Of a stretch of DNA of 64,000 nucleotides, positions 24,432 to 45,794 are shown in pieces (the stretch's first letter is position 1; each line of letters begins with the position of its first letter). Both the position numbers and the translations under genes were made by a program. Source of the DNA: Latrodectus hesperus (taxonomy: Eukaryota > Arthropoda > Arachnida > Araneae > Theridiidae); assembly GCA_037975125.1 (NCBI GenBank), contig CM075853.1, positions 90,527,663-90,591,662 on the forward strand, in the 5' to 3' direction. The notes under the pieces are model-generated. The model made no database searches, was not told the origin of the DNA, and saw nothing but the letters and a program-made list of their open reading frames with translations.

Positions 24432-24663
24432 TCAAAAGGAATGCGAGTTAATTAGACAAGTAACTAAGACAGTTTCCAGTGGATGAACTTTAATCAGATC
24501 ATTAATATTGGTTTTACGCACCATCTCATGATCGGTTCCCACAGTCTCTCGCATGAAAGCTATGAAATGCACTGCGTTTTCAAATACTGTAGCATTATCA
24601 GTCTTGTTACACACGCAAGGTAATAAACTCTTCATATATTGACAAGCATTTTTGATGCGTAAC
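24432..24663 (-). CDS. bHLH gene exon 8, residues 339-415, helix-loop-helix and stop
   Basis: 232 nt, with acceptor tttaattcag. It starts with the last base of R339, then LRIKNACQYMKSLLP (helix 1 ending in the conserved LLP), a loop containing CVCNK, and helix 2 from TDNATVFENAVHFIAFMRE. A short tail follows (NDLIKVHPLETVLVTC), then TGA. The family pattern of hydrophobics is kept in helix 1 (I, C/M, L, L) and helix 2 (V, A/V, I, M). This exon alone starts inside the domain, so an internal ATG call would lose helix 1. Confidence 0.9.
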
Positions 24664-45600: not shown

Positions 45601-45794
45601 TTGATCCAATTTCCACGTACTGTTGAGCATTTTCTTTCTCTGAACTTTGTGGACTGCAAAAGAAAATCACCAATTAATCAAAAGTAGAAGCATGCGTAAT
45701 ACGTAAACATGTTTTTATAAAACGGTTAAGTAAATGCACATGAAATAAATCATATCTACCTATCAATAATGCGGCATTGTTCGTATTGTGACAT
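24432..45794 (-). CDS. Spliced gene for a 415-residue basic helix-loop-helix protein (TCFL5/SOHLH-like), 8 exons
   Basis: Probable nuclear transcription factor. Join complement of 45760-45794, 45483-45653, 40706-40781, 36857-37075, 29490-29711, 26463-26602, 25176-25328 and 24432-24663 (1248 nt including stop). Every intron is GT-AG and all junction phases match (2,2,0,0,0,2,2). The bHLH lies at residues 329-378: basic region ESHNEKERKRR with H331, E335 and R339, the residues that read E-boxes in this superfamily; helix 1 340-353; P354; a loop with two Cys; helix 2 about 362-378. A tail of about 37 residues follows. Residues 223-235 are Arg/Lys/Gly-rich (possible NLS) and 242-287 are Ser-rich. 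The C-terminal domain position and the TDNAT start of helix 2 recall TCFL5; the FMRE end of helix 2 recalls SOHLH2. Both are germline factors in vertebrates, so a gonad role here is inference. The gene model is strong; the subfamily is tentative. Confidence 0.85.
25176..25328 (-). CDS. bHLH gene exon 7, residues 288-339, basic region
   Basis: 153 nt, with acceptor tttattacag and a weak but usable donor CGAAG|gttggt. It contains an amphipathic segment (VDKQKVLDIQWIPQIQSRIA) and then the DNA-contacting basic region ESHNEKERKR. The intron interrupts the codon for R339, the last base-reading residue, so the domain cannot be seen in either exon alone. Confidence 0.9.
26181..26460. other. Intronic GC-richer block beside exon 6
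   Basis: Lies in intron 6 immediately past the exon 6 donor. It is more complex than typical intron sequence here: it includes ATGCGCGCTTTGTGTAAGCC and an 8-bp inverted pair AGAACCGA/TCGGTTCT bracketing TGACTCAGTTATC (an AP-1-like TGACTCA). No open frame continues from the exon. Possible intronic regulatory element. Confidence 0.3.
26463..26602 (-). CDS. bHLH gene exon 6, residues 242-288, serine-rich
   Basis: 140 nt, with acceptor aattgtag and donor CCCAG|gtgact; enters in phase 0 and leaves in phase 2. 17 of its first 46 residues are serine, with runs such as SVSSSSLSSS, so it is probably a phosphorylatable, disordered linker before the DNA-binding domain. Only one frame is open across the whole exon, and it joins exon 7 through Arg288 (AG|A). 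Confidence 0.85.
29072..29146. repeat. 31-bp hairpin with 2 mismatches, 13-nt loop (intron 5)
   Basis: Arm 29072-29102 pairs with 29116-29146 with two mismatches; the inner part is ATATATTTAATACCTAT and its complement. Confidence 0.88.
29490..29711 (-). CDS. bHLH gene exon 5, residues 168-241
   Basis: 222 nt (74 codons), phase 0 at both ends, with acceptor ttattttag and donor CAGG|gtaatg. It encodes DSTTYVMPSTYFQF through a proline/serine region to a strongly basic stretch at residues 223-235 (RGRGVHRQRRPRK). That stretch is a plausible nuclear localisation signal or nucleic-acid contact. A 77-bp (TA)n tract begins 29 bp upstream of the acceptor, unusually close for a branch-point region. 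Confidence 0.85.
29741..29817. repeat. (TA)n microsatellite just upstream of exon 5
   Basis: About 77 bp of TA repeats within intron 4, 29 bp before the exon 5 acceptor. Confidence 0.95.
32384..35340 (-). pseudogene. Decayed non-LTR retrotransposon (LINE) ORF2: reverse transcriptase and RNase H
   Basis: Transcription sense is minus. From 35340 downward there is a pre-RT piece (EVPFSKQEISI... LRRGKAPAH), an RT palm start (PRKQVPFHLEKRSF... FGLKQGRSVDS), GPILWNLV-like IPILWNLV (34522-34545), the catalytic FADD box (34432-34443) and a thumb (NHIKLQGVFMNKNL). An RNase H relic follows near 33390-33420 (WTDGNEKADKEA, canonical GNExAD), then a worn C-terminal part and presumed 3' UTR to about 32384. 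Many stops and frameshifts mean it cannot act. Motif order fits R1/Jockey-type arthropod LINEs. It lies in intron 4, in the gene's own orientation. The endonuclease part is not seen, so it is 5'-truncated. Confidence 0.8.
35400..36250 (+). pseudogene. Decayed Tc1-like transposase (second family)
   Basis: In sense orientation, 35735-35880 reads FGKRVMVYTGISIDVYSNLH then NGVLTRCRYRDEIFRPI, and 35895-36160 reads RPYHANLVNESILEVGIIRT, ACSLDIHPIEHVCDIL and AGRLLPTKPLQEQERTLLDE. These are the central and C-terminal parts of a Tc1 DDE transposase, in which IE belongs to the catalytic DPxxNPIEH-type box. Stops, frame changes and a lost N-terminal region show long decay. The piece at 35417-35630 is assigned by adjacency only. 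It lies in intron 4 of the bHLH gene, antisense to it. Confidence 0.75.
36364..36533. repeat. (TA)n microsatellite in intron 4
   Basis: About 170 bp of TA repeats, starting about 115 bp after the Tc1-like relic. Confidence 0.97.
36857..37075 (-). CDS. bHLH gene exon 4, residues 95-167
   Basis: 219 nt (73 codons), phase 0 at both ends, with acceptor tttcaatccag and donor CTG|gtaatt. The peptide begins LITVKKEATPC and is rich in Ser, Thr, Asp and Gln, as expected for a disordered regulatory segment. The pattern VKKEA resembles a SUMO-acceptor consensus (hydrophobic-K-x-E), which is a weak guess. The reading frame stays open past the donor into the intron, so an uncorrected reading-frame call here would be wrong at its C-terminus. 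Confidence 0.85.
39108..39963 (+). pseudogene. 5'-truncated LINE: RNase H domain and C-terminal zinc-knuckle, frame still open
   Basis: One uninterrupted frame runs from about 39108 to the stop at 39951-39953, although it begins mid-protein. It reads LHVYTNGSTD, AGAGVFYQLF, FAAEALLNF, VDSQAAIQAL and WIPSHVEIPGNEKADSLAK, the ordered RNase H blocks, then CLLCDRG..GRHLWEC, the CCHC knuckle at the end of Jockey/R1-type ORF2. The first catalytic Asp of the YTDGS block is Asn here. A short A-run follows the stop. The absence of stops suggests a younger insertion than the LINE at 32-35 kb. It lies in intron 3, antisense to the bHLH gene. The truncation point is typical of incomplete target-primed reverse transcription. 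Confidence 0.85.
40706..40781 (-). CDS. bHLH gene exon 3, residues 69-94
   Basis: 76-nt exon, with acceptor ttttcaaatag and consensus donor AAA|gtaagt. One base completes Gly69, then 25 codons follow (starting SWSPSIHDDLND, ending YKTIK), leaving in phase 0. It is too short to show up as a free-standing reading frame. It is supported by both splice sites, phase agreement with exons 2 and 4, and non-repetitive codon-like sequence. Confidence 0.75.
41075..41752 (+). pseudogene. Decayed Tc1-like transposase (third family), truncated at a (TA)n tract
   Basis: Plus-strand fragments in order: HSVVPNLWNQNQTENF (end of the N-terminal helix-turn-helix part), LVADHSAASGRRISAST, VLFTDNPDSHGK (canonical LFTDESRF, with Glu lost), HQIPSIQHCGMVLPRW (canonical HxPSNIxE...G), then the GISLGGHTDLHV-like region and IGVKYQDMIPNPHIRSFA. 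Several stops and frameshifts. The alignment ends where a 178-bp (TA)n array starts, so the C-terminal third, including the last catalytic Glu, is missing. It lies in intron 2, antisense to the bHLH gene. Confidence 0.75.
41752..41929. repeat. (TA)n microsatellite in intron 2
   Basis: About 178 bp of TA; it replaces the missing 3' part of the Tc1-like relic to its left. Confidence 0.97.
44206..44441 (-). repeat. tRNA-derived SINE, copy B (minus), 5'-truncated head
   Basis: Read on the minus strand it matches copy A (23331-23650) from the B-box region (TTTTGAGGCTCAATCCTCGG) through AGGAAAACAGGGATAGGCAC to the GGTGCCACAG end. The A-box half of the head is missing or decayed. It lies in intron 2 of the bHLH gene, in the same orientation as the gene. 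Confidence 0.85.
45424..45452. repeat. Short (TA)n tract near exon 2 donor
   Basis: About 29 bp of TA in intron 2, about 30 bp past the donor of exon 2. Confidence 0.9.
45483..45653 (-). CDS. bHLH gene exon 2, residues 12-69
   Basis: 171 nt, with acceptor ctttTGCAG and donor GATGG|gtaaat, entered and left in phase 2. It encodes codon 12 (Ser, split) to codon 69 (Gly, split). The peptide is hydrophilic with a short beta-rich patch (GSNIFLGTKDGIKYTLLP) and ends in a Ser/Asp-rich stretch (DTSSYLSSSD). No known domain was recognised. A 29-bp (TA)n tract sits only about 30 bp past the donor. Confidence 0.85.
45760..45794 (-). CDS. bHLH gene exon 1 (start codon)
   Basis: Encodes MSQYEQCRIID plus two bases (AG) of codon 12. 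The ATG is preceded in frame by TGA (complement 45798-45800) with one codon between, so translation cannot begin further upstream on this exon. The donor reads ATAG|gtagat. The short exon is accepted because its phase fits exon 2 exactly and intron 1 is a compact 106 bp with a good acceptor. Non-coding 5' exons further upstream cannot be excluded. Confidence 0.75.

Follow-up and report, generated by a model that had tools for sequence, protein, structure and literature searches.

A 64,000-nt stretch of Latrodectus hesperus DNA, referred to here as the window (G+C, 26%; part of a 123-Mb contig in a genome of 1.64 Gb), raises the question of whether eight short open frames on its minus strand constitute a single gene and, if so, where that gene ends and to which family its product belongs. 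A preliminary description of the locus had proposed a complete bHLH gene of eight exons. The analysis reported here makes it likely that the window holds a single minus-strand protein-coding spider gene (45794-21488) of nine exons and 395 residues, predicted to specify a nuclear TCFL5-like bHLH factor that probably acts in the male germ line.

Spliced as first drawn, the eight exons yield an open frame of 415 codons that begins with an ATG at 45794 and runs without an internal stop, and the exons, their phases, the GT-AG borders at all seven introns, and a maximum exon length of 232 nt were re-derived as originally claimed. The observation that exons 4 and 5 read on into their introns was likewise borne out, the frames remaining open for 90 and 15 nt, respectively, past their donors. 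No RNA gene in the window reached Rfam gathering scores, and ARAGORN found no tRNA.

Comparison of the translation with protein databases, a check proposed in the preliminary description, returned close relatives. Some 5.8 billion proteins were searched, and nine matched at an E of ≤0.001, all of them from spiders (E = 2.2e-130 to 1.3e-47; 37 to 68% identity over the aligned part), with sources in Parasteatoda tepidariorum, Caerostris, Nephila/Trichonephila, Oedothorax, and Argiope; they carry the names "uncharacterized," "hypothetical," or "BHLH domain-containing," and all nine are without a named function. These proteins are public gene models, and two of them, P0001 and P0004, represent one species. 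When the corrected protein (see below) was aligned pairwise with each relative and a junction was scored as crossed if no gap lay within four residues of it, each of the eight junctions was crossed ungapped by at least three of the nine: P0007 (Oedothorax) crossed all eight, P0001 (Parasteatoda) crossed seven, P0009 crossed one, and the other six relatives crossed five each, the counts at the exon 7/8 junction taking in P0006 and P0008, which end there, so that such ends may count by chance. As judged by sequence comparison, nine homologues with collinear exons lend strong support to a real gene, and they rule out a chance chain of open frames; the wider proposition, that the frames form either such a chain or a decayed copy, found nothing in its favor and is vanishingly improbable in the face of E-values down to 2.2e-130, collinear exons, and a joined frame without a stop. 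By these comparisons, the locus is an ordinary gene, of known type, that this species shares with other spiders and that is predicted to encode a DNA-binding bHLH protein. The uncharacterized spider bHLH proteins are the same gene by collinear alignment, but the tails of the public models differ and three of the nine (P0004, P0006, and P0008) are truncated at the exon 7/8 junction or immediately beyond it and lack an HLH label.

Conservation varies along the gene. Coding exon 1 (45794-45760; 35 nt, residues 1 to 12) contains the start codon and aligns with the N termini of the relatives, and it is poorly conserved: in the seven relatives where this part is present, 2 to 6 of the 12 positions are identical. 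Exon 2 (45653-45483; 171 nt) contributes a conserved N-terminal block, QQYVEIGSN.FLGTKDGIKY.LLPTSD, and 29 to 34 of 52 to 57 aligned residues are identical to those of P0001, P0002, P0003, P0005, and P0007. Exon 3 (40781-40706; 76 nt) is weakly conserved, exon 4 (37075-36857; 219 nt) carries the conserved GQGDESGNSIISTPDSTSRFK block, and exons 5 (29711-29490; 222 nt) and 6 (26602-26463; 140 nt) are matched both in the alignments of the relatives and by unspliced tblastn. Exon 7 (25328-25176; 153 nt) contains a PRVPNNTP block and the basic region, and exon 8, first drawn as 24663-24432, contains helix 1, the loop, and helix 2. In unspliced tblastn searches with the nine relatives, exons 2, 4, 5, 6, 7, and 8 were matched singly, mostly with strong E-values, whereas two relatives hit exon 3 (E = 0.48 and 1.3) and none hit exon 1 or exon 9, in agreement with the earlier remark that exons 1 and 3 are nearly invisible alone. 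The exon 2 block (residues about 24 to 55), although conserved among the spider relatives, belongs to no Pfam family; a structure model of the 415-residue form (mean pLDDT, 41) contains both helices of the bHLH and, within this block at residues 31 to 55, a weak patch of three strands with a pLDDT of about 60.

The introns and flanks contain the remains of mobile elements and simple repeats. A 281-codon frame on the plus strand of intron 3 (39108-39953) encodes the RNase H end of a retroelement (PF00075; E = 4e-9); a retroelement origin of the gene itself was considered and rejected, since this frame lies on the opposite strand inside an intron. In intron 4, broken frames on the minus strand (32810-34985) look by eye like reverse transcriptase, and two pieces of them gave no Pfam match. 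TA arrays occupy 29741-29817 and 36363-36533 in intron 4 and 41752-41935 and 45424-45453 in intron 2; the longest is 184 bases, and together they make up 1.9% of the gene span. Tc1-type transposase pieces lie near both ends of the window, at 58508-59470 on the plus strand and 14-385 on the minus strand (PF01498, E = 1.8e-15; HTH_38, E = 5.1e-7), and appear by eye to be two copies of one element.

The proposed 3' end of the gene required revision. The preliminary description had presented the gene as complete in eight exons with an exact stop, but an exact stop carries no evidential weight of its own, since every frame that continues eventually reaches one. The part of the bHLH domain encoded by exon 8 is present in six of the nine relatives, and three of these six (P0001, P0005, and P0007) depart from the first-drawn frame at the window's ..GTDHEM and finish with EFLHQA, EFLEQNCVF, or EFLQKACMY; at the point of departure the window reads ATG|GTGCGT, a donor (24522|24521) that these three relatives apparently use. 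The rest of the minus strand was scanned for an acceptor followed by an EFL-type tail, and six places fitted loosely; a single strict fit, TTATTTTCAG|GAATTT..., lay at 21517-21488, where 30 nt downstream of the TTATTTTCAG acceptor spell EFLEQTSLY and a stop, 2.9 kb beyond the first-drawn end of the gene. To estimate chance occurrence, the 24,521 bases searched were simulated 1000 times with a third-order Markov model. The loose pattern, EFL with an early stop, arose on average 0.09 times in each run, and the tight pattern (EFL, then E/H/Q, then Q/K), which was derived from the tails of the three relatives but set down after the tail of the window was known, arose in none of them. From the relatives we infer that this ninth exon is used, so that 21517-21488 is most likely the last coding exon, exon 8 most likely ends at the donor (24663-24522; 142 nt, with GTGCGT from 24521), and the 90 nt originally drawn as its end (24432-24521; 29 residues and a stop) are most likely the start of intron 8. 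In the corrected model, nine coding exons spread over 24.3 kb of the minus strand (45794-21488) would supply 1188 coding bases for 395 residues; the multi-exon bHLH gene first described is upheld by relatives collinear across its junctions, and its end moves from 24432 to, most probably, 21488, outside the coordinates originally drawn.

The tails of the remaining relatives bear on a further reading, in which the 415-residue eight-exon form represents a genuine second end of the transcript, with intron 8 retained, that exists beside the nine-exon form. Some public models do pass the same point (P0003) or carry other tails (P0002 and P0009), yet the 29-residue read-through tail has no likeness in the tails of the relatives found, save for VR in P0003, which stops after these two residues, themselves spelled by the donor GTGCGT, and we consider a second transcript end of this kind very unlikely. 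The two Caerostris models have another tail in common, of 27 residues, for which a search of the window gave chance-level matches only; measured against exon 9, the tails differ in three of the six relatives that carry exon 8, namely, the two Caerostris models and P0003. AATAAA signals occur downstream of exon 9 from 21358, in a region so A+T-rich that the signal says little.

The domain that gives the protein its class appears only after exons 7 and 8 are spliced, as had been noted at the outset. The Pfam HLH family (PF00010) matches residues 328 to 376 with 31.7 bits (E = 1.4e-7), against a curated cutoff of 20.7 bits, and intron 7 interrupts this domain at codon 339, where the basic region gives way to helix 1; a six-frame search of the spider's own genome gave at least 61 HLH matches at an E of ≤1e-3, a lower bound in that 100 first-look candidates were scored, and none of them falls in the window. 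The helices extend from about residues 333 to 352 and 362 to 380, and all six aligned sequences have H331, E335, and R339. With such an H-E-R triad in the basic region, class B bHLH proteins recognize CACGTG. A leucine zipper is absent, the protein ending 9 residues past exon 8 with no heptad leucines there, and so is a PAS domain, the HLH match being the only Pfam match above the cutoff in the whole protein.

Among the bHLH families compared, TCFL5 scored best. A TCFL5 bait drew 424 proteins at an E of ≤1, and among the best 120 of these 424, those with a species name were vertebrate proteins; a motif search of the same 120 yielded 58 distinct TCFL5 regions, which scored 42.6 to 45.8 bits with the spider profile, compared with 36.6 to 37.4 bits for Max. 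Aligned profile to profile, the spider and TCFL5 domains share 66 ungapped columns at 33% identity (score, 58.3; E = 2.5e-11), and single 61-residue pieces compared with the spider bHLH gave scores of 54.6 for TCFL5 (E = 5.7e-11) and 47.3 for Max (E = 2.3e-9). Conversely, the TCFL5 profile gave 37.4 bits for the window's bHLH and 28.1 bits for the best solved bHLH chain, that of BMAL1, and over the whole protein it gave 33.1 bits for the window and 28.3 bits for L031, which is ARNT-like by eye and was the best piece from 61 HLH loci of the same genome, a comparison made with six-frame pieces and outside which genes with an intron-cut domain fall. The likeness to vertebrate TCFL5 consists of an ungapped bHLH alignment, including a loop of equal length, a TD[KN]AT motif, and EF just after helix 2, but identity over the bHLH is only about 33 to 36%. 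Outside the bHLH, the window's protein gave no match below an E of 1.0 with five TCFL5 proteins. With the low-complexity filter and composition correction turned off, four other spider proteins gave separate weak matches to TCFL5 (E = 0.006 to 0.03), and some bHLH matches stretched weakly upstream at 20 to 28% identity (P0003 with P0034; P0007 with P0107, P0059, and P0123); we take all of these likenesses to be compositional. Used as the query of a region search, the window's bHLH retrieved no more than 5 proteins, all from spiders. On these sequence grounds we prefer the label "TCFL5-like" to "TCFL5."

The scores of Max have to be weighed against this assignment, since the gene could instead have branched off long ago from class B bHLH proteins of the Max type, losing its leucine zipper and having no special kinship to TCFL5. 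Among solved structures, the top score belongs to Max (26 bits with the single sequence and 37.4 bits with the profile), which shares the H-E-R triad of the basic region. A tree of 37 rows and 53 columns (27 loci of the same genome, five spider proteins, four TCFL5 proteins, and Max; left out were L001 to L008, the partial hits, L020 with its insert, and L031, the domain of which is identical to that of L030) grouped the spider proteins with TCFL5 at 89/93, below the level starred by the program and flagged for few columns and the long branch of TCFL5. Placing the spider proteins in a clade with Max and L033 instead cost 5.98 log units and was not rejected by the AU test (p-AU, 0.126). No leucine zipper, however, follows helix 2 in the spider protein; its loop, equal in length to that of TCFL5, is shorter than the Max loop by one residue; the scores in both directions favor TCFL5 over Max, and the spider's own genome contains a closer match to Max in L033, which is 54% identical to it. 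A Max-like origin is accordingly distinctly improbable, and TCFL5 is retained as the nearest of the families compared.

A second candidate for the true kin is SOHLH1, a germ-cell bHLH protein, in which case the gene would be the same and its likeness to TCFL5 would reflect ancestry common to both. According to a 2019 survey of SOHLH genes (PMC6529535), Arachnida and Merostomata have SOHLH1 and Insecta lack it, and invertebrate SOHLH1 occupies a branch of its own, separate from other SOHLH proteins; the arachnid entry there may possibly be this gene under another name. As a lead only, a provisional sequence of the human SOHLH1 bHLH has the same ER.RR.R...C..L..LLP pattern, but in it R stands where the spider protein has the basic H, its loop is one residue longer, and the spider profile gives it 25.6 bits, below both Max and TCFL5 (42.6 to 45.8 bits). 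We regard kinship to SOHLH1 in preference to TCFL5 as unlikely. A stronger form of the TCFL5 reading would make the spider gene, and perhaps also the invertebrate genes now called SOHLH1, genuine TCFL5 orthologues; a master regulator of male meiosis in vertebrates would then have been present already in the last ancestor that arthropods and vertebrates share, insects having lost it since. This reading is put forward tentatively, as somewhat less likely than not.

If the TCFL5-like assignment is correct, the protein would be a nuclear transcription factor that dimerizes through its two helices and recognizes an E-box-like site by means of H331, E335, and R339 in its basic region; by analogy with TCFL5 it would act most likely in the male germ line, which would fit the gonad expression hinted at in the preliminary description. 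As reported in PMC9812935, mouse TCFL5 works with A-MYB in male meiosis, mutants are sterile, and the binding site is WANSWCGW, unlike the classic CACGTG; because the mouse site departs in this way, an E-box-like target of the spider protein is only a candidate. An oyster gene named SOHLH1 is expressed in male gonads, according to PMC6529535. Titles and the opening parts of abstracts on spider or arachnid bHLH proteins, arthropod or invertebrate TCFL5, and spider SOHLH1 contained nothing on this gene, and the sole entry for Arachnida in that literature, as far as its available parts extend, is one table line in PMC6529535.

The corrected model is of a gene type that automatic annotation often breaks, as in three of the nine public spider models. 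TCFL5 orthologues have been reported in the vertebrate classes from fishes to mammals, according to PMC9808571, and if the kinship to TCFL5 is true, a factor reported there for vertebrates would extend to the chelicerates and an old origin of this male-meiosis factor would become testable in the spider testis.
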